A DNA stretch of 15,798 bases, taken from Bondarzewia mesenterica (lineage: Eukaryota; Basidiomycota; Agaricomycetes; Russulales; Bondarzewiaceae). A program made the translations under genes and the position numbers. The notes below the pieces were generated by a model. It saw nothing but the letters and a program-made list of their open reading frames with translations. It had not been told where the DNA came from and searched no databases. Positions 1 through 15,798 of the stretch are shown piece after piece. The stretch is taken from contig SGPL01000676.1 of NCBI GenBank assembly GCA_004802705.1, positions 1-15,798 on the forward strand, in the 5' to 3' direction. Within the stretch, counting starts at the first letter, position 1. Every line of letters starts with the position of its first letter.

Positions 1-798
1 CATCTTCCACCGTCGACCCCTGCATCTGCTGTGCCCAATGGCATCGATGAAGGCGACAGCACGTGCCTTCAAGGACTTGTATCGAACGAGAAGGACCTTC
101 TCAGCACAACCCTTGCCCGGCACGATTGCGACCGAATCCCATATGGCTTGCATTCCCGGCTCCCAATCTGCCGATCCTGCGAAGTCCGCCCGCTCATCGC
201 GTATCTTCTCACCGTCGACCTTGACCTCTCAGCTCGACGGCAACGCTGCGTCGCAGACCGAAGACGACCCATTCATCCACACAAGCGGCGAGCAGAAACT
301 CAAGCTGAAGAAGCGCTCCAAGTCCGCCTATCTGAAGCACGAACGGAAGAAGTCGCAGCGTAAGGTGTAGGTCAGCGATTTCGCACTCAAGGCCAGCACG
401 AACCGGCAGGTGCTTGCCCCTCAGGAAGTTCAGCATACTTTGACGGAGTAGGCGGTTCTGAAGAGGATGGCCACTAAGGGCATGGATCCGTTTGTTGTCA
501 AGCTGTGGTGGGGCCTCCAGGACAAAGAGAATTTGTTCTTAGTTCTGGTGGGCCCGTTTTTCTTGCATTTCTGACCATTCTATATTGAATTACAAAAGGA
601 TTTTCATCCCGGAGGCGATTAGGTCACACAATTGGCGCGCTCGGGAAGACTCGGCTGGGACAGAGCTCGATTTCATGCCTCAAAAATCGTAGGAGTGGAA
701 GGCCTTCATCTGCCAGCGTTATCTATCGCCATCTCAAGCTGGAGAACATACTCATTGCTGTGGATGGACATATCGCACTCCTGACTTCGTTTCTCTAA
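1..798 (+). pseudogene. AGC-family Ser/Thr protein kinase relic, 5' end open
   Basis: This is a decayed copy of a fungal AGC-type kinase. Frame 2 runs from the left edge through a basic Ser/Lys-rich segment to a stop at 368-370. In the same frame it continues with VSDFALK, QVLAPQEVQHTL, a stop (TAG 449-451, probably once CAG), AVLKRMA, PFVVKLWW and DKENLFLVL. A 51-nt GT-AG intron (548-598) follows, then DFHPGGD and another stop (TAG 620-622). After a frame change, YRHLKLENILIA (from GTT at 718) matches the catalytic loop of kinases, where the family has YRDLKPEN, so the catalytic Asp is now His. The DFG motif is also gone and the reading ends at TAA 796-798. The glycine-rich loop is missing: VSDF runs straight into ALK, as if about 25 codons were deleted. 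The rest of the C-lobe is not found downstream. The retained intron argues against a retrocopy. The subfamily is uncertain. Confidence 0.72.
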
Positions 799-1771
799 AG
801 AGTGCCCTAGATGCACTATGGCTATTACCGCGCACGAATGGAGTCGAAAATGGTTTCCACTCAAGGCAGTCCCCCCCTCTTACCGATTGAGCGAGAAGAA
901 AGCATGGGGAGGAGCAATCTGCGCGATGATCAAAGTGGATCTACTCTACGTCAGGTACCAATGAAGGGTATCCTTAGTGTGAGTAAAGATAACGGGACTT
1001 ATTTACCATCTAATACTACCTTCCTCCGGGTCATACACACTGAAAACCCTAATTATTCACTATGGCTGAACTTTTATGATTCGACCTCTCAGGTTGCTCG
1101 CATGACCTCAGCTGCTAAAGCCCGCTGTCAAACCCCTTGCCGTTGATAGCGTCTTTCAGTTTAAGATTTTGCCTCAGGCCTGATATCAACTTGCTTCCTC
1201 ATAATGACGGCCTTAGGGATGCGGGCAACACCTTACCTTCAACTAGTGAGATTTGCCTGAAGTTGACGGTAAGCAGGCCAAGTGCCTTCAACGTCAGCTA
1301 CGTTCAATTTATTGAATGACATAAATGACAGAGGAAAAGGGCAAGGACAATACCTCCATTCCATTCTGACTTCTCAACTTGACACTGACCTTCAAGCGGA
1401 GCTTGTCTATCGTCGTATCCATAATATCTTTAAGCAGCATCATAACTGCCCTCTGCACGAACATAGCGAGCTTCTAAGAAAGATCCCCCTCCCCGAGCTT
1501 GTATAGAGGAAAAGATAGGTCTGATTCTATTATACTGGGTGTTGGATTTTAGCCAGCGATGCCTGCTGCAGCTTGCTTAAATAACTGAGATAGTTGGTCC
1601 TTACGCACCACCACAAAAACTAGATGATAACGACTATGCCCTCAATTGTGACCATTTGTCTAAGTAAGCGAGATTCTGGCGGGTCCATTTAGAGCGTCAC
1701 CTTACGTTATGGTGCCTTTCTATTGTGGCGGTTGACTTTTCCCTACCATCCGGCAAGACTTCGACATATTC
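799..1771. other. Non-genic stretch before the OrsD-like gene
   Basis: I find no supportable gene here. The open frames are short and have no recognisable motif. One short frame at 1372-1506 (+) encodes SQLDTDLQAELVYRRI. It vaguely resembles a segment of proteins associated with basidiomycete DNA transposons, but the match is too weak to name. The last 100 bases presumably hold the promoter of the gene starting at 1772, with no clear TATA box. Confidence 0.4.
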
Positions 1772-4700
1772 ATGGCCTCAAGCTCAGGTAAGATATAAAA
1801 GAGTTCTTTTGCTTAAGCAAAGAAACTCAATTTACGTTTTTGGCAGCCCAAAAAGAAAATAAAAATGACTTTGGACTTGCTCTTAGCCCCCGAGTTATGG
1901 AGCCCCTTGACAACGAGCGCGTCCCACTTTTTCCAATGACCGACAATAATGCTGGCAGGGTAGGTAAACATTTTATCGTATTTTGGATAACTTAAAACTC
2001 TGTCATGCAGAATGAGAGTTTGAGGAAGCGGAAGCAGACAGAAGCAGAAATAAATACTCTTGACATCTCGGGGTTCTATCCAGCAGGCCAGGTTAGTTTA
2101 TATCGCTCTCATGATATCTTTTATCTATTTTAACTGAACTTTACCAGCACATCTTGCCTCCTTTGATGGAGGTAAGTAAAGGTGCTTCAAGCTCACCGGA
2201 CGAGGATAGAGGCCTTGACCGAGAGAATAGCAATGAGCCACCTCAAAAGAAGCTACGATCGTCATCTCTCATCACGTCCACCACTAATCAGTCCTCCATA
2301 CTTCTCAATAAGAATAACAAACATCGACGACGAATGGTTTATGTTCTAATTCCACCGCGAAAGTTTCTCCGAAAGGCTCACAGAGCTCCAGTCCCTATTA
2401 TCTCTGGGCCTTCATCACCAGCTTCATCTCCCTCCCTTTCTCGTGAGGACTTGGTGCCAAGCAATGACTTATCTTCTATCGATTTGATGCCTTCTAAAGC
2501 CACTGCAGCTGTTGCTTTCCATTCAGGGATGCCACCTCTAACCTTACGGGCGCGATCACAAAGGCCACCTCAAAGGTTCTCTCAGCTCTCCGACAACGAG
2601 GATATAGACGATGATTATGCCTCCACTTTTTGTTCTGAACAATTATCTATGGAAGATTCATCAGACGAGGGCCCCCCCATGCGGCAAAAAAAGCAAAAGG
2701 AGAAGCGCTTGCCATTAGTAGGGGCTGGAATTCGTTATATTCAAGGGGGCGATCAGGTGCAGCAAGAAGACTCTGGGGAACATCATTCATTCCACTTTCT
2801 AGATGGCCACATCTGTCGTCTAGACAATCATCAGCATCGAACTGGCCGGTGTCCAGTGCTCACATTCTTCAATATGATCTTTGTTCCTGAGTTAGGCGCG
2901 GTAATTTGCACCTTACATCGTGGCGGCTGCATTGTTCCAATGTCCAACTGGATCACCCATGTTAATCATGATCATCCCTTCAAGTTTGCTAGGAAGAAGT
3001 CCTTTTTGCCGGATATGGCCGAGCATGTCGCCTCATCTCATGGTCTTGGGATCAAACAGACGGTAGAAACGCTTCATCTGCCCCAAAATCTTCCTCATCC
3101 TATCAACCTTCCCAACCTTTATGCTCGGCTCACTGGCACTGTGATGTATCGCTATCGTTGCCCATTCATAGATTCTGATGGCCAACGCTGCTCTCGCTGG
3201 GAGCAGGCAAATAGAGGCGAAAGTGGACCAATACATCAGTATATAAATCGTCACATCAGCCGTATACATGGCCAGCGGCATCAACTTCCTGATTACGAAG
3301 GTCGTTGGGTTCAACGCTTTTATATTTGTTCCCGAACATCCACTACCGATATCTATCACGCTTGTTTGCTTCCCAAGACTTGGCATCCGTCAGAAGCACC
3401 CAATCTACTTCCGCAATCCCTTGCAACTCCACTTTCACTCGCAATCAAAAACCCTTCCGTCGCCGAGAGACTAGCTCCAGCCTGGATGGAAAGCCTGGGG
3501 TACAACGCTTATCTTAAAAGCCTAGGAGAATTAGATTTTGAACGATTGAAGGCTTTATTCGCTCTTCCTTCTATCAAGTTGGTTAAGATGAAGACGGGTT
3601 CCGCGAGATGGATTGAATCCGGGCTATTGATGGCACGTCAAGATGATGTTCCTTATCTGCAAAATGCAAATGCCTTTTTATCAAGTCGACATCCTTTACT
3701 TCGGGATGCCCTAGTCTTTGGGTAACTTCTTTTCTCCACTTAATATTTACTTCAGGCGGCTAAACTAGTCTCGTCTTTCATTTATAGGAGCGAACGCTCA
3801 CAATTCCGAAATATTCAAGCACGATGCTACTTTGAATATAGCTCGCCCATTTCCATTACTATGGCAATGATGATACGCTTCATTCACGCTTACAAGTCTA
3901 GAGACCTCCGAGGCTTAGGAAATTTCGTTCTAATTGGAGATGGAGAGCAAGCTCAGGCAGCTTTAGAGCTTTACGAGCTCATTTTGAGTTCAAAAGGTTG
4001 TCCTAATATCTCCCAATTACAGCATCTCAAGCATCGACTGTACACCACCCTTTTTCAATCTCAGCATCTATCTGAGGACCCTATCGCCTGCCCTACAGAT
4101 CAGACCATTTTTTTTCTCCGCCATGAATGCTATGGATCGTGGATTGTATCGTCCTTCAAACGTTGTGGCTGGCATCTGTGCAATGCTACAGTTTTGCTTC
4201 AGATGCATCCTCGTACATGAGGCGCGGCTTCTTGCCTCTGGTGGTGACAAATATGTCCCTTACAAGCCGGATGAAATGGATAACAAATTGGTATTGGATA
4301 AGAAGGAGGGCTCAGCCAAACTAAATTTTGGCGCCATCGAAGATCTTCTTCATGGTGAGTATAGCGAAGGAGAGGATGAAGATAGCGAAGAGGAGAGCGA
4401 CGCGGAGTTGGATAATGATAGAGCAGACCTTAATGAAGTGTCTCAAGTGGTTCATAGCGGCCAAAGTGAGTCCTATAGTTTTATCAACCTAAAGTATCGT
4501 TGCTAAAATGCATATATTTGCGTTTAAAGGTTATATTTTTCGGAAGTCCGCTCTTGGTTTTATGAAGACCACAAAAAGTCACTCACAATCAGATAAAGGG
4601 AAGAATAAGAAGCCAGATCAGGTTATGAAGTATGCACAGATCTATAGTGTTTCGCCTTGATGCTAAGGATACATCCTTGATTTTAGGTACCTGCAGGACA

Positions 4701-6559
4701 AAAGCATGTTTGCAACCCCTTTCGCACACTCTGGCCTTACCACTGCCTTCAATCGATTGAAGTCCGTGTGGTACATTGTCCGACCATTTGCTTTAACGGA
4801 AAAAGGCCGATCTCAGTTTCGAATGCAAAAAGATGGCCAAACTCTGGAGTATTTTCGATTCAGTCATGCTCCTACTCCTCAGCTTGTGGACATGGAAGTA
4901 TGGGCATCAATTACTAGAGGCTTTCTCGTCCAGTTTCAACATGCGGTAGAATCTATGCTTCCCCCAAACTCTAAGCTTGACGACAGCCTTATTACCAAAA
5001 TAATCGATCAGGATGTTCGAGAAGCGGCCCATCGACAACCTCAAAACAAAATCTGGTTAGATCCAATTCGTTCATCGATCGCCTCCTCGCTTTTCCATCC
5101 TGGAGTTAAGAATCATGGACTGATTCAGAGTGATGGTCAAATACATATGGGAAACTCTAACAGATGGCTCTCTCAAGATCAAGACGTATTGTCACTCCTA
5201 ATCACAATTGCGATAATGGCCCCTGGCGTTCCTTTTTGAGGATTTCAATTTGAACTTTTGCGCTTCGACTCTACCGATCAAAATAACCGGAACGTCGCCA
5301 TTCTTAGAAATGGGACGTTCATTATTCACAGTCCACGAGCAAAGCAATCAAATATTCGCATTGCTGACGCCTTATTTGCTTTTCCTCGAAGCATGTCCAC
5401 CCATCTTGTCTACTACTTCTATATCATCCGACCTCTAATTTGCGATCACCTTCAGGCCATGGCGAGATCGGTACCAGAGTATGACTCTCTAATATGGTCT
5501 CGCACCTTGCCTCTACGAAGGCGAGACAATAAATGGCTTTGGATAGGAGTAGACGTTGGAAAGGCATTGCAGCATCATACAAAAGATCATTTTGGTTTTG
5601 CTCTTTTTCCGGCCACCGCACGACAGATTACGCTGGCGATTTTTCGAGAGAAATTTCCACAATTATTCGAGAATTTCTTCATTCCAGCTTTCGAAAAGGG
5701 CGCTGATCGAACCCTTCCCATAGCCTTGAAGACCTATGGATATAATTGTCATTTTCCAACGTTCGAGAATATGGATATGAATCAAGCTGTTTGCCTTTTA
5801 GCCCTTACCGAGATCTGGCAGGCTACGTTGGCCATTGGGCCTTTAAACGAGGCCTGGCGGGATATAGTCGAAGGCTCACACCTTTTTCCGACCATAATAC
5901 ACGGCCGATTAGCTTTTGAAGTAGCTCGAAATGCGGTTGGCATTTATTACGGCGTGCATGGTGGAAATCCGGAGGTTCAAGCCCTAATTCAAGCTCTATT
6001 AATCGACTTGCCTTTTCTTTATGGCTCGAAGGTAAGACTGAGCTTTTTGATACAGATTTTCTTAGCTGAACAAATAAACGATAGAGAGGGAAGCCACAAT
6101 CACCCCATAGCACTAATCTTGGCGATGAAGTGCTGAGCGAAGTTCTTCAGGCCATCCTCTTTGGAAGTGATCAGGCTCGGGTTGCTTCCACTCCTCCAAT
6201 TGGTGGAATTTTGATTGATGATGGAGCAGAAGCCATAACTCTGGTATGAATTTTTTTTTTCGCTCCAAATGACTTGTTTATATTATTTCATTCAGATTGT
6301 CAAAGCCTTGAATGAATGGTCCTCCGAGAAATACGTCGACCTTTCTGTTCTAGACGGCAAATCCCTCTCCCACTATCAACAGGTCAAGAACAAGGCTAAA
6401 GATGCATTATTCGCACTGAAAGAGGGGGATCAGAAAGGATGGATTTCCTTTAGCGCCTATGTTTTCACAATTTCCGCATCTTCTAACATTCCGACTACTC
6501 ATATCACCACGGCTGAAATGCTGTCCCTCGCGTTTAATCCTTCACACCCCCATTCTTAA
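1772..6559 (+). pseudogene. OrsD (DUF3505)/telomere-linked-helicase-like protein, nine exons, two lesions
   Basis: Proposed exons are 1772-1787, 1847-1959, 2011-2091, 2148-3721, 3788-4465, 4530-4629, 4687-6031, 6085-6243 and 6296-6559. All introns are GT-AG, 51-66 nt, with matching phases. Allowing for one extra T, this gives about 1442 codons. ATG 1772 is chosen because exons 1-3 splice in phase into the long exon. The N-terminus (residues 1-240) is Ser/Pro-rich with basic clusters such as NKHRRRM and QKKQKEKR, suggesting nuclear location. Two zinc-finger-like motifs follow: C324 and C330 with THVNHDH, and C408-x8-C with H439-x4-H444. An acidic stretch lies near residues 785-810. The pattern of two finger-like motifs resembles the OrsD family and the half of TLH/RecQ proteins that precedes the helicase. 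No helicase domain is present. Lesions are a T8 run at 4108-4115 that shifts frame, and TGA 5237-5239. Function is unknown. It could be a young pseudogene, or an intact gene with sequencing errors. Confidence 0.68.
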
Positions 6560-6765
6560 CTTGTTAGGAGAGGGCCGCTGCGTTACACGGCATGAACGAT
6601 TCTCACCTCTTTTTCTCTTTATTTTAATATTCCATCAGACTCTGGAAGAAATTAATATAATATTGATGCTGATCTCTCATTGTAATGAGTGTAGTTTACT
6701 ATGAATCCCTGGCGGTATAATTTTAGATTTTAAGGATCTCATAGGACAACAAGGGGTTGGAGATG
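6560..6765. other. 3' flank of the OrsD-like gene
   Basis: This AT-rich stretch follows the TAA at 6557-6559. It contains no RecQ helicase continuation in any frame and no recognisable gene. It probably holds the 3' UTR and terminator of the upstream gene. Confidence 0.4.
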
Positions 6766-6960
6766 GAGTGGGTGAGCATGAAACCCCGTCACATCAAAAT
6801 GACGAAATGATGGGACAGCGTGGGCAAGCATGAAGCCCGATTCTGTCAAAATGGCAGGATTAGGGACATGCTCAGCAAACTATCATGCCGAAACGACAGG
6901 GCTGAGGATGGAGTGGGTGCACGTAAAAGATAAATACTGTTGCCGATGTGGATGAATCGA
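6766..6960. repeat. Degenerate 52-bp tandem repeat
   Basis: Two units, 6766-6817 and 6818-6869, align over their length. They share GTGGG, AGCATGAA, CCC, TCAAAATG and GGGACA at the same spacing. The start of the unit (GATGGAGTGGGTG) recurs at about 6906-6918, so a third, decayed unit probably fills 6870-6910. No coding meaning is evident. Confidence 0.55.
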
Positions 6961-7280
6961 GATCGGATGGAATGGGCAAGGTGACGATGCACGTGCGCGT
7001 GTGTACTCGAATTATGTGCATGTGCCGGGTTCGAAGAAGTGGGGATAGTGGAGGAGGAGGAATTGATAAGGCCTGAGGGGTGGTGAAGATGAACGGGAAA
7101 TTGAAATGCTCGCCGGTACATGAGAGGCAAACAAATGTGGGTATGATCTGGGTGAACTGCCGCTGCTGCTCAGTCCGCTCAACAATTGGGGCATCGAAGT
7201 CGTGCCCGAACCCATCGTCGCCGTCAAATGCAGTCCATGCTGATGTAATAAGGTGACAAAAATGAGAAACATACTGCGTA
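6961..7280. other. Non-genic stretch downstream of the amylase relic
   Basis: On the minus strand, 7150-7257 can be read as a weak continuation of the alpha-amylase C-terminus (the fragment TAFDGDDGF resembles the AFGRGxxGF segment of the family). The match is too poor to include in the gene. The remainder shows nothing recognisable, and the open frames on both strands look like chance. Confidence 0.3.
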
Positions 7281-8809
7281 CCATCGCCTAGGCATTGCGG
7301 AAGCTGACCATGGCGACGACGGACGTGTGGCGGTCTTGGCAGAGCTAGCTACTCGAACCACCACAAGTCCCCGAGCATGGGAGAGAGGAAGAAAGGAGAA
7401 ATGTTTTTAGCACAAGGGATTCAGAAAAGAAAAGGACGGGAGGCGAACCATTGTTGGGCACGCCATCATTCCGGCCTGAATACTTGTAACTCGAGAGCAC
7501 CGTCGGACGACCGTAAGGGTGTGCGAGGGAGAAGATGAGCGCGTTGGTGTAGGTGTTAGAAGGGGAGGTGTAGTTCAGGGAGTCACCTGCCTTTTTGAAT
7601 GTACGACAATTAAGCAAGGGAAAGGAAGAATGGTGATGAGCAGAGAGGAAAGAGCTCACGCGTTCAGTGTCGTGATTCATAACAAAGACGTTTGCCGATT
7701 TGCTTGGGACCCAACCTAGAAAACAGGAAAAAGGTCGATATTCAGAAAATCTCGTTTAAGAAAGTAAAGGCAGGAGGAGGTGGAGAAGAAGGGGTTACAG
7801 ACCGAGGTTACTAAAGTTCTGCAGACTCGAGATATTGTTCGAAAAGCCCAGAAACGCGGTCATCAGCGCAGTTGTGTACCGGAACATTGTCGTTCACCAA
7901 GAGCGGGGATCAGCAAATGGGAGTTCTTAAAGAAGAGGATTGGTTAAGGAGAGAAGGTGCGCTTGCTCTTGTACGTTTCCTAGAAAATTCGATCGAGGTT
8001 AATAATGAGTGGTGAAGACGGAGAGAGAGATGAGACGCACCTATGCCAACATACTCGGTAGGCTGGATCGGCTCATCGGGGCCCCAAATGACTTCCTGTT
8101 TGATGTACGGCTGCTTGCTGATGAGTGTCGTGAAATTCTTGATGTTCGACGCAGCAATATCTGGTGCGGTGGACGCAGAAGCAGTGAGTTCTCATGTTCG
8201 TAGAACACGAATGTGAGTTGTCGGAAACGGAGGTGGAGAGACGCACTCTTCACAATATCTAGACGGAGGCCGTCGACGCCCAGAGAAAAGATATCATTGG
8301 CATACGCTGTGAACTTTGATGGTACATCCGATGTGTCCGTCGCAAGGCTTTATGAATCACCCAACCACACACACAGATGTCAGCACACGCGCCCCATCAG
8401 AAGACAAAAAAAAGTGGTCAATCCGCATTTGAAGGGAAAGGGAGAGAATGGGTACGTACTCCGCAAGGTTAATGAGCATGCACGTCTGCACTTCCACTCA
8501 GTTCATGTTCATCTGGCCGTCGGGCTTGAGGGTGCAGTGGTGGAAACTGTCATTGTTATACAAGTTGCCGTACTTGAAATGCGTGAACGATGTCCTGCCA
8601 ACACCCGTCCTGCCTTCAACACCAGTCATATGGTTGAATATCGTATCTGTCTGAGTTCAATTAAAGCGTGAGCATGAGATGATGGAACGCGAGAGAAGAG
8701 AGGCGGGAGAGGAAGAAGGGCGCGCACCGGCGATGACCTGCACGCCCGTGGTGTGGCAGGTCTTGACCATGTTGGCAAACTGGGTGCGGCCGCTGCGCTT
8801 GGAGATGAT
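7281..8809 (-). pseudogene. Alpha-amylase (GH13), 5'-truncated and broken
   Basis: Minus-strand exons, in transcript order, are 8809-8728, 8646-8460, 8347-8247, 8160-8041, about 7886-7803, 7715-7660 and 7590-7449, then a remnant to about 7281. Splice phases match at most joins. All four GH13 signature regions are visible: DTIFNHM (region I), GVDGLRLD with the nucleophile Asp, KQEV with the acid/base Glu, and FVMNHDTER with the third Asp. SPSNTYTNALIFSLAHPYG is typical of fungal secreted alpha-amylases that hydrolyse alpha-1,4-glucan. The signal peptide and roughly the first 100 residues are missing; similarity starts abruptly at SKRSGRTQFANMV. Lesions are TGA 8498-8500 (family: Arg), TAG 7345-7347 where WLCQ is expected, TAG 7288-7290, and an unclear start to the fifth exon. 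Intron 8161-8246 is somewhat long. The upstream neighbour is a protein kinase C fragment, not the amylase's own 5' end. Confidence 0.85.
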
Positions 8810-8849
8810 CTGTCAACAGTGGACAATCAAGTTTGTATCTTGAACTTAC

Positions 8850-9869
8850 CTCTCAACTTCATTATTGTCGATGATGAACTCCTTCTTCAACACCTTGATA
8901 GCGTACAAAATGCTGCTGGATTTCTCCTCCGCCAACATAACCTTTCCGAAATTACCCTTTCCAAGGACAGCCGAGAAATTGAAGCCGTCCAATCCAACCC
9001 TACGCTGAGGCTTGGCCTGTATGGTACCCGGCCGCTGTTGTTGCTGTTGCTGCATCTGCATCTGCTGCGCGGGGTGTACGGGCAAACGTTCACCTGGAAC
9101 AGGCACCCGCTGCGCCGCCATGGGGATCAGCTGACCAGCATAGTGCTTCGGTGGTACAACAGGAACCTGCAGCTGCGGCGATGGGCGTCCTTGTACAGGG
9201 TATCCGTCAACCACAGGAGCATGCTCGAAGCCGCCTGAAGCAGGCCTTGCGAGTGGAGGCTGACCCATGGGCTCAGCATAGGTAGGAGTCACAGGAGGTG
9301 AGCACCAGGTGGCGGCTATGTGGGGAAGGAGCCGGGAAGAGGTTGCTGCTGCCGCCGGTCATACGGAGTGAGGGGTTGTTGGGGTTGCTGGTGGCCATGG
9401 ACAGGTTCGGCTGGCTGTTCGGCTCCCGAAAGACGGAATCGGTCCATTTCGCCGGAGACGCCGGTCATGACATCGTAAGGAGGGGGAATCATGGCCTGCG
9501 TACGAGGTGGAGGACGGCCTGTCATGGCCGCCTTACTGCCGCGTGTACGATTGATATCTCTCCAATCGCGAAGGAGCTGGTTGGCAGTCTCCATCGATAT
9601 ACCGCAGAAGTCAGGAACGAGATGAGCGCAATTGGCATGACATGTAATGTCACACTCAGTGCATCAATGAGCATTCTTATGACCGAGGGGGAGCATATAA
9701 CCCCAGTGACAACACCAATTCGTGCTGATGTTGGTAATGGGCCCAAACCGACGAGGTATCCGGTCATTGATCTTTTCTTCGTCACCTTCCTATAAGAACT
9801 GTTAGCATACGGGAGACGGGGAAAGCATGTATTGCGTACCCCGGCATTAGACTTTGATATGCATTTCGT
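8850..9869 (-). pseudogene. pkc1: Protein kinase C fragment (C1B domain to glycine loop)
   Basis: On the minus strand, TKCISKSNAG (9869-9840) splices across a 50-nt intron (9790-9839) to EGDEEKIN. The second C1 zinc domain follows ([13 protein letters not shown], then TECDITCHANCAHLVPDFCG) and leads to METANQLLRDWRDINRT, a sequence characteristic of fungal Pkc1. Next come a Pro/Gln-rich linker with a short poly-Gln tract and the start of the kinase domain: [17 protein letters not shown] (ATP loop), AIKVLKK (ATP-binding Lys) and [10 protein letters not shown], ending at the donor site 8849. The HR1, C2 and C1A domains and the remaining kinase domain are absent. Lesions are a zinc-ligand Cys changed to Trp at 9703-9705, TGA 9664-9666 within C1B, TAG 9316-9318, and a frameshift between about 9296 and 9315. 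In the intact family this kinase acts in cell-wall integrity signalling. Here it is a relic inside a chain of fragments. Confidence 0.87.
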
Positions 9870-10137
9870 GCGGTGTACACTTCCTTGGCGGTCGGCTGGA
9901 TGAATGGCGGTGGAGAGGCGGAGGAGCTGGGGGTGGATGGAGGAAAGGGATTTTGATATCGGGAGGCGAGACACTCACTGAGAAGAGAGAGTGCAGTGGG
10001 TTGTGGAATTTGTCTGCGGGCAGAGGCGGCAGGATGCCAGAACCTGGGCGACGATGCTTCTCGCGCACGGTCATGCTCCACCAGTCGTTCTCTACCTCCT
10101 CATCACGTCCATCGATGTTGATCTTGTCCGCCGCCAC
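9857..10137 (-). pseudogene. Fragment of a ubiquitin-hydrolase-like basidiomycete gene
   Basis: The minus-strand frame reads EEVENDWWSMTVREKHRRPG, then SGILPPLPADKFHNPLHSLF and a Pro-rich stretch. In another frame, PTAKEVYTARNAY follows at 9895-9857. This order resembles the N-terminal part of large basidiomycete proteins annotated as ubiquitin carboxyl-terminal hydrolase-like, which carry WWSxTVREKHRRPGSG, then LFSV, then PTADEVRTAxPHPNAYYC. That match is from recall and not verified. A frame change lies in the Pro-rich part. The start is unclear: the frame begins with GTG after an in-frame TGA. The fragment ends within NAY and gives way directly to Pkc1 sequence, sharing about a dozen bases. 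No active-site region is present. Confidence 0.45.
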
Positions 10138-10408
10138 GCGTCAGGACGAATGCATACGAGCCCATGCCGCTGTTTCCGGGGAGAAAGCAAGTAAAGGAGA
10201 CGTACCAATGATATAAGTTCTACTTATTTATTGTTTACAAGATGCTGCGGGACGCCCTTGCTGTAATGGGCACGAGTCGCGGTCTGGCGTCCTGCATTCC
10301 CAACGTTCGAACAGTGCGAGTGGGAGAAGGAAGCGAGAAGCGGAAGAAGTGGGAGAGTTTCTGGTGCAAGAGAATCTGCGGGACTACGCGTCAGAGTTGA
10401 AGTCAAAC
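10138..10408. other. Non-genic stretch upstream of the relic chain
   Basis: There is no recognisable coding sequence. A minus-strand GTACGT...ACAG pair (about 10171-10206) could be a short remnant intron of the ubiquitin-hydrolase-like gene, but no exon upstream of it can be identified. Confidence 0.3.
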
Positions 10409-10622
10409 TTACCGGTAAAGAGGATCCCCGGTTAACCGGTGAAGGAACACTACAAAACCGGTGAAGTTACACTACAAAACAAAGAAAGCTCATTTGCGCG
10501 AGACTTTCCATTTTGTAAGGACACTAGTCCGATTTGTAGTCCGACTAGTAATTTCCCCAATTCTGCGAGCAAAATGGCCCGACGTCCCATCCACAAGTAA
10601 CGATTCCCTAATCGGGAATCGT
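10409..10622. repeat. Cluster of short palindromes, direct and inverted repeats
   Basis: The cluster contains the palindromes TTACCGGTAA (10409-10418) and CCGGTTAACCGG (10428-10439). A 22-bp direct repeat starts with ACCGGTGAAG at 10435 and 10457, and each copy carries CACTACAAAA (10448-10457 and 10470-10479). TAGTCCGA is repeated at 10525 and 10537. ACTAGTC (10523-10529) is inverted at 10543-10549, and TTTGTAGT (10533-10540) is the inverse of the ACTACAAA core. A 9-bp stem, ACGATTCCC with GGGAATCGT (10600-10622), has a 5-nt loop. This density suggests the end of a small DNA transposon or MITE. No matching opposite end or target duplication was found. Confidence 0.5.
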
Positions 10623-11128
10623 AATAAGTTTGCCTCCTGTAACGATGGAGTTTTATAATTTGGAGACGCATTTTAAGATCTATTTTCAAATTTACCTCAA
10701 TTCTGGTCGCCAAGCCCCAATCACCTTTGCCTGCGCGAATACAATAAGAAACATATGGCTATGATGATTGCTATATATAGCTAAAATTTAGAAAGAAAGA
10801 AAAACACTCTTATCGCACGATCATATATTACTAGGACCAAATATGATGGTTTTCACTTGAGCCCGCCCTCTCTTGGCTTTCCTCTGGGGAGCAATATTTT
10901 GGGCTGGCGCACCCTAAGCCTATGGTTGGTCATCATCAGATGTGACAGCCGGACGGGATGCTCACAGAATGTACAGTTTTGACATTTGTACTACCAACAA
11001 CCCCGAGACGACTAAGGTGCCGCAAACATTGCATTGCTTGTTTCTGGGGGCGTGAGTCGTCCACAGAGGTCCACCGCAACTGCTTCCGGGCCATCCTGCT
11101 GGCTCCGCGGTGAACCCATAACCATGGG
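10623..11128. other. AT-rich non-genic stretch, distal upstream of the Ecl1-like gene
   Basis: I see no gene. Bases 10740-10850 are AT-rich with runs such as GCTATATATAGC. The short open frames on both strands have no recognisable motif. Confidence 0.35.
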
Positions 11129-15140: not shown

Positions 15141-15798
15141 TACAACGATCGGTCAAACTCACTGCCCCTCACCCACTCGCATCACCACTAAGTCACCTAT
15201 TCCTCCTTCACTCCATCCTAAATGACCTCGACGGCAGCCTGTCCCAGGCACTCGACATAACGCTGTAGCAGTCATAGCAGGAGGAGGAGAGAGGAGGAGG
15301 AGGCAGAGGAAGGAAAAGGGCCGGACGCCACATCGAGGAAGAGTGAGGGCATGCTCCTGGGTCCCCGCTCGTCCCCGCTCAGGTGAGCATGAAACGTTAT
15401 TTAGCGGTCGAACGTGGGAGTCATCTTGTGAGAGAAGTGGATACGGGCGGCACAAGCGCTGCGTACGTACGGTCCCTTTTGCTTCCGCAACAGCCATGGA
15501 TTTGACCTTAGAAACACGGAAGAAGCGTGCCATCAGAGCGGCAGCTTAGCACCTCTTAGAGCCTCTATCAGGAGAGAGGGCTTTCCACAATTTCTACATT
15601 ACCTTGCTTGCAAGGTTTATTGCCCCCTCATAATTGTCAGGCACCGAGCAACCTGGTACATATGTGCAAACAAAAACAGCCTTTCGGACTTTCAAAAAAG
15701 TTGTAACTGCACCTAGCGTCTTGTCTTGTCGATGCTCGGAGGCACGCACAGCATTACTGACTGGACGAAAGCCACCCAATCTCACCCAATATTANTAC
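15141..15798. other. Right-end stretch without a recognised gene
   Basis: The sequence upstream of the zinc finger relic may contain its promoter or lost first exons, but no motif supports this. Visible structure is a purine-rich GGAGGA tract (about 15280-15315), an exact 10-bp tandem duplication GTCCCCGCTC (15361-15370 and 15371-15380), and a near-perfect palindrome ACCTTGC-TT-GCAAGGT (15601-15616). Base 15795 is N, close to the end, which suggests a contig or scaffold edge of lower quality. Confidence 0.4.

Follow-up and report, generated by a model that had tools for sequence, protein, structure and literature searches.

Pieces of three host genes joined within a probable Helitron2-like element of the basidiomycete Bondarzewia mesenterica

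The capturing Helitrons of maize have canonical Helitron1 ends. Gene capture by Helitrons is already known, and the maize elements hold fragments of several unrelated genes within one Helitron, for which stepwise capture has been proposed (PMC3288121); the element described below is alike in this respect. The FoHeli elements of Fusarium oxysporum are non-canonical and Helitron2-like. They encode RepHel and have an asymmetric inverted repeat, the 3' copy of which lies about 20-40 nt inside the element, and FoHeli1 and FoHeli2 carry hairpins at both ends (PMC5148889). These traits are all encountered again in the Bondarzewia family. HELPO1 and HELPO2 of Pleurotus ostreatus resemble it as agaricomycete Helitrons with RepHel, and differ from it in that their ends are mostly of the canonical type; some of them hold genes regarded as captures, with other hosts as the probable source, and the conclusion of that study, as given in the cited text, was that the Helitrons of P. 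ostreatus capture no host gene fragments (PMC4289320). Helentrons and HINEs are also non-canonical rolling-circle elements with fungi among their hosts, and gene fragments occur in them occasionally (histones in Culex, one gene in Phytophthora; PMC4067079). No report of patchwork capture of host fragments by a Helitron2-like family of a basidiomycete was found in the open-licence literature, as far as the cited texts extend.

The window analyzed here is the complete contig C636 of the wood-decay fungus Bondarzewia mesenterica (Russulales), 15,798 bases long, from a 33.1-Mb draft assembly in 844 contigs. A preliminary description had noticed three gene fragments joined in one orientation on the minus strand, at 7281-10137. 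BLASTN against the organism's own genome bears out the chain: pieces of a USP25/28-like gene, of PKC1 and of an alpha-amylase gene, all sense on the minus strand, abut between 7291 and 10173, with edges at 7291, 8812, 9870 and 10173. Neighboring pieces overlap by 1 nt, one base being common to both parents at each of the two joints. The limits given earlier, however, have to be moved to these edges, and the block is part of a larger element of 4.07 kb. Judging from the ends of this element and from its relatives, the block is very probably cargo carried by a non-autonomous, Helitron2-like rolling-circle transposon. The features of the element are as follows.

Positions 6559 to 10625, minus strand: the whole putative non-autonomous Helitron-like element, 4,067 bases, with recurrent sharp ends and a relative on contig C618 that has the same ends in the same order.
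Positions 10600 to 10625, minus strand: 5' terminus, with a terminal A or G in all 33 true right-end rows and, by folding, a hairpin whose 9-bp stem starts 3 nt inward.
Positions 10407 to 10625, minus strand: 5' region common to family members, including those on C85, C361, C447, C268, C323 and C534 (genome matches).
Positions 9870 to 10173, minus strand: captured fragment 1, an internal stretch of a USP25/28-like ubiquitin carboxyl-terminal hydrolase gene (genome match and names of relatives).
Positions 8812 to 9870, minus strand: captured fragment 2, PKC1 (genome DNA match).
Positions 7291 to 8812, minus strand: captured fragment 3, an internal part of an alpha-amylase gene with introns, both cuts lying inside exons (genome DNA match).
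Positions 6960 to 7255, unstranded: a further repeated piece with copies on C265, C766, C548 and C412 at 74-79% (genome matches).
Positions 6744 to 6919, unstranded: a piece shared with the patchwork element on C45, 81% (genome matches).
Positions 6559 to 6740, minus strand: 3' terminal region, with the inverted repeat of the 5' tip 36 nt inside, a weak hairpin and the terminus CCTCTCCTAACAAGT (end alignments, folding).

Matching genes for the three pieces are present in the same genome, where a BLASTN search for parents had been proposed; all are on other contigs and continue beyond the fragment edges. The amylase piece (7291-8812) corresponds to C496:1165-2695 with 88% identity over 1,542 columns, and the PKC1 piece (8812-9870) to C129:16861-17919 with 94% over 1,060 columns. 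The USP piece (9870-10173) matches C518 at about 90% over 46 + 263 columns. Weaker copies of this stretch lie on C145, C699 and C151, and C518 was chosen as the parent because it is the closest match. The piece had been taken for the start of a ubiquitin hydrolase; it proves to be an internal stretch, approximately residues 156-267 of the 402-aa frame on C518.

The identity of the fragments is based on their DNA match to the parents, on the names of the USP relatives, and on PDB matches of an amylase parent frame and of the PKC1 piece. The C129 parent has HR1, C2, C1 and kinase domains (Pfam). The N-terminal frame of the C496 parent matches alpha-amylases in the PDB, and Pfam finds an Alpha-amylase_C domain in this gene, the only one of its four frames to be recognized, while several PKC1 parent frames are recognized strongly. 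One source gives relatives of the C518 frame the name ubiquitin carboxyl-terminal hydrolase 25 or 25/28. The window fragments themselves are recognized weakly by Pfam; the PKC1 piece matches PDB sequences, and one amylase exon of the window gave no match. The PKC1 piece extends through the second C1 domain and the linker to the first kinase residues and terminates within an intron; we take it to begin at the end of the first C1 domain.

For PKC1 and amylase, the alignment to the parental genomic DNA continues straight across introns, in agreement with the earlier remark, for these two pieces, that introns are retained. Because the pieces run through the parental introns, copying took place at the DNA level. 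When 7281-10137 was used as a query against the genome, the only full match was the window itself; among the 11 matches listed there was no second copy of the block, and none other than the window spanned a joint.

The direction of copying was assessed by counting CpG changed to TG or CA in the fragment against the reverse, a loss in the parent. The amylase fragment has lost 42 of 130 CpG, versus 9 of 91 in its parent, and the USP fragment 8 of 31, versus 1 of 24 in C518. For PKC1 the direction is weak (11/68 versus 7/63). These losses suggest a transfer from parent to fragment, clearly for amylase and USP and weakly for PKC1. Compared with C145 (7/22 versus 7/23) and C151 (7/18 versus 8/24), the USP piece shows no direction; these two USP25/28 copies have themselves lost CpG relative to C518 and may likewise be fragments. 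For the pieces of the elements on C45 and C27, an excess of CpG loss in the fragment was found in all seven comparisons made. Outside CpG, amylase has diverged by 0.075, PKC1 by 0.044 and USP by 0.030, values compatible with a stepwise capture in which amylase came first, a dating blurred by donor identity and parental constraint.

Relative to its parent, the main PKC1 exon has a pS of 0.105 and a pN of 0.049, two stop-making changes and one frameshifting deletion, and the longest ATG frame in the element's sense has 140 codons. The fragments have the appearance of decayed passengers, and the chimera is most probably without a protein product. If it has an effect, this would be exerted through a putative chimeric or antisense RNA. 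A new intron at the joint of PKC1 and amylase, formed from the PKC1 donor and a CAG of an amylase codon, was considered and rejected: its branch-to-acceptor distance seems insufficient, and stop codons lie beyond it.

Since the window makes up an entire 15.8-kb contig of a draft assembly, its joints might be ascribed to a misjoining of unrelated reads. Misjoined parental reads, however, would equal the parents and therefore cannot explain fragments that differ from them at about 6-10% of aligned bases, with indels. The directional loss of CpG in the amylase and USP fragments and the four other contigs of the same design described below also speak against an assembly artefact, which is scarcely credible here.

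Both ends of the element recur in the genome. Window positions 6530-6760 have at least 43 genome matches and positions 10395-10660 at least 40, the window being included in each case and some contigs giving several rows. When the left ends are aligned, the start ACTTGTTAGGAGAGGG is common to 36 rows from 35 sources, with a first A in 35 of the 36, and the information per column stays at or below 0.32 bit in the 11 columns outside and reaches 1.35 or more in the 13 inside. At the right end, 33 true rows from 32 sources end in ATAA or GTAA, followed by T (22 rows) or C (11). The right-end table had 43 rows, 10 of which were the palindrome read on the other strand and were excluded. The sources of both tables were picked for matches reaching the end, and some rows share flanks and are not independent; the left-end table is without one further end each in loci L046 and L026, and the right-end sources are without L036, L012 and L013.

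The sequence ACGATTCCC is at the 5' tip, and its complement lies 36 nt inward of the 3' end; this copy is exact in 5 of 14 rows, has one mismatch in 7 (including the window) and two in 2. Folding with RNA parameters, and no shuffles, gives a 9-bp stem at the 5' tip and a weak 5-bp stem near the 3' end. A paralogue on C11, 78% identical to window 5915-6557, stops 2 nt short of the element. Its match resumes at window 10836 over 27 bases, which is not significant (E 0.51), and the stretch from 10626 to about 10830 is without assigned similarity. C11 thus supports the 3' boundary and is a possible empty site only. On C45 (L043, 1115-1332) two 5' ends occur about 161 bases apart, a multiple-terminus form.

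The C618 relative (62540-72540) has both window-type ends. Pfam recognizes in it Helitron_like_N (PF14214, 2.7e-17, profile positions 108-191 of 191), a PIF1 helicase (PF05970, 2.7e-14) and DUF6570 (1.8e-35), in frames that are interrupted and contain N. All these domains are on the minus strand relative to the window orientation, which is the element's sense strand. The element therefore reads from 10625 to 6559, with the three gene fragments in sense. The 5' end was placed at 10625 and the 3' end at 6559 from this strand and from the position of the inverted repeat, and the opposite reading, with the left end of the element as its 5' end, was given up on the same two grounds. The naming of the ends could be swapped: RepHel is inverted in some Helitron2-like elements (PMC5148889), and on the plus strand the hairpin end is invariably followed by T or C.

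The sequence common to the window and C618 is mainly that of the ends, 133 columns at the 3' end and 52 + 78 columns at the 5' end. All six contigs named above for the 5' region combine a window-type 5' end with C618 sequence on the same strand and in the same order. Ends in matching order were found on 6 of 8 other contigs (C451, which has several ends, was left out), those on C821 and C534 not pairing in order. The ends on C168 also pair in order, the left match there covering only window 6617-6702. Within C618 (L040, 7600-9990) there are pieces that match few places (C386 at 89%, C194 at 88%), with a second copy on C534 at 86%; thus even the RepHel-encoding relative carries such pieces.

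The element may be called Helitron2-like by the end layout described for Helitron2 and FoHeli (PMC5148889). Through the C618 relative, which shares the ends, the family encodes Rep and a PIF1-type helicase. The terminal inverted repeat is asymmetric, with its 3' copy in the range of 20-40 nt inside, and hairpins are present at both termini, the 3' one being weak. Helitron2 inserts between TTTT and T or C (compiled in PMC5148889). In all 33 rows the base past the hairpin end, on the plus strand, is T or C, which would fit the T/C side if the element is read reversed; the TTTT side was not seen, the commonest base reaching at most 0.50 in the 11 outer columns. The Helitron1 pattern of 5'-TC, 3'-CTRR and A/T insertion is not present: the 5' end is R-TTACG or R-TTATG, the 3' end has CTAA 5 nt inside the conserved end and not terminal, and no AT target was seen. 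The asymmetric terminal inverted repeat and the hairpins at both ends also distinguish the element from the capturing Helitrons of maize. Its terminal sequences differ from those of FoHeli (PMC5148889). Helentrons carry an endonuclease domain (PMC4067079), whereas none was found in the 9 C618 frames scanned with Pfam, out of 13 listed (at least 120 aa).

In this single strain, no target-site duplication is visible at 6559/10625, and the flank columns are close to random. Pack-MULEs likewise carry gene pieces in patchworks enclosed by conserved ends, and a Pack-type cut-and-paste transposon with terminal inverted repeats and captured fragments had been put forward as one source of the chain. 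The inverted repeat at the ends is, however, only 9 bp long and asymmetric, a target-site duplication is not visible, and the coding relative has Rep and helicase domains, all of which makes a Pack-type origin very improbable. Capture by a Helitron, the other transposon proposed, is supported by the multi-copy sharp ends, the C618 relative and four further patchworks.

All five non-autonomous elements examined (the window and those on C27, C45, C169 and C374; C168, with its ordered ends, is outside this count) are patchworks, most of whose pieces were not identified as genes. On C45, pieces from C77, C334 and C201 meet at joints within 2 nt. From our own reading of the frames, and not from a database, we take the C77 piece to be Ish1/Msc1-like and antisense, the C334 piece to be sense and unnamed, and the C201 piece to be PRP31-like and sense. 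The C27 element has two runs of neighboring pieces, one from C1, C156, the C95 group and C156 again, the other from C671 or C329, C113 and the C57 group, with joints ranging from a 3-nt overlap to an 8-nt gap. C169 contains pieces from C76, C446, the C95 group and C640; two of its joints are within 1-3 nt and two are gaps of 37 and 66 nt. C374 is made of pieces from C675, C31, C359, C737, C759 and C588, several within 3 nt of each other and others 150-170 nt apart. It is 99% identical to C441 over 2,102 bases and 98% identical to C409 over 1,123 bases, each match spanning several pieces. Since the flanks of these near-identical copies differ, this patchwork has moved as a unit. For FoHeli, 27 putative captures are recorded, and no important role for them is seen in the cited text (PMC5148889), versus patchworks in five of five elements here.

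The process by which such an element is formed can be outlined as follows. The RepHel protein of relatives such as C618 would nick the element, peel it off as single-stranded DNA and copy it to new sites, a transposition in trans suggested by the family. The fragments would, somewhat more probably than not, be added successively within the element, through template switching or filler-DNA repair, and would afterwards decay under cytosine methylation. Filler-DNA repair or template switching has been argued for insect Helitrons (PMC6544945), and the stepwise capture in maize is compatible with it (PMC3288121). The two joints of the window do not reveal the mode of joining because only 1 nt is shared at each; judged by eye, the joints show no more shared sequence than chance might give.

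A different joining step in the same Helitron is end bypass, in which the transposase overruns the 3' end and takes downstream host DNA repeatedly, with a new terminator each time. End bypass was shown experimentally for the bat Helraiser (PMC4778049), and it fits the common sense orientation of the three window fragments. The fragments, however, are enclosed by a 5' end and a 3' end of the family type. A scan of the five non-autonomous elements for the 3' end, with up to 5 errors allowed, gave one in each and none further inside, and one of the three C45 gene pieces is antisense by our reading. Earlier terminators may have been lost to decay or, in C45, be masked by N. The 5' motif, scanned in the same five elements, occurs besides the 5' ends (two in C45) as one weak match with 4 errors inside C27 (L042:4077-4095). 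Internal template switching or filler repair appears to fit somewhat better, and end bypass is the less likely alternative.

Patchwork capture by a Helitron2-like family in a basidiomycete would run against the published views of fungal Helitrons, as far as the cited texts express them (PMC4289320, PMC5148889). The chances are about evenly balanced that such a family shuffles host DNA in the maize manner, adding pieces inside by template switching rather than overrunning its 3' end, which would make fungal Helitrons a genuine source of multi-gene chimeras. Several elements in a genome of 33 Mb are made up for the most part of sequence that also occurs at other places in that genome; for some, parent genes can be identified, the order in time is given by divergence, and one has near-identical copies. 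A small genome thereby offers a test of how fragments are joined, by end bypass or by filler repair. In a 2024 screen, capture by helicase-bearing elements was suggested as a possible origin of host-transposon fusion genes in fungi (PMC10799480), and elements like that at 6559-10625 would provide raw material for such fusions.

The mosaic structure is not confined to the element, because its flanks, too, match several contigs piece by piece; most of these matches lie at 69-84%, some short stretches reach 91%, and the contig-end repeat reaches 99%. These flanks, together with a small displaced inversion at 72-124, are what a subtelomeric or general patchwork made by break repair, with no transposon involved, would have in its favor. 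Yet their pieces are mostly less similar than the 88-94% seen in the block, neither end motif was found in these flanks with up to 3 mismatches, the same ends enclose different patchworks, and one patchwork has copies of 98-99% in different flanks. The subtelomeric patchwork joining proposed earlier is not needed to account for the block, and break repair of this kind is highly unlikely.

Several observations concern these surroundings. Open frames, including one of 536 aa (2115-3722), occupy window 2115-6559; a DNA copy of 2163-5825 is present on C583 at 76%. The 536-aa frame has no Pfam match at E<=1, and scoring of 7,992 candidates gave no homologue at E<=0.001. Within window 8-904, the 53-base stretch 72-124 is inverted and displaced relative to C661, C161 and C235 and resembles a template-switch scar. 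At its other end (15595-15798) the contig terminates in a roughly 200-base repeat that is found on many contigs at 80-99%. This repeat also opens a 1.5-kb block inside the C27 element, and it lies near the copies of 6960-7255 on C265 and C548.
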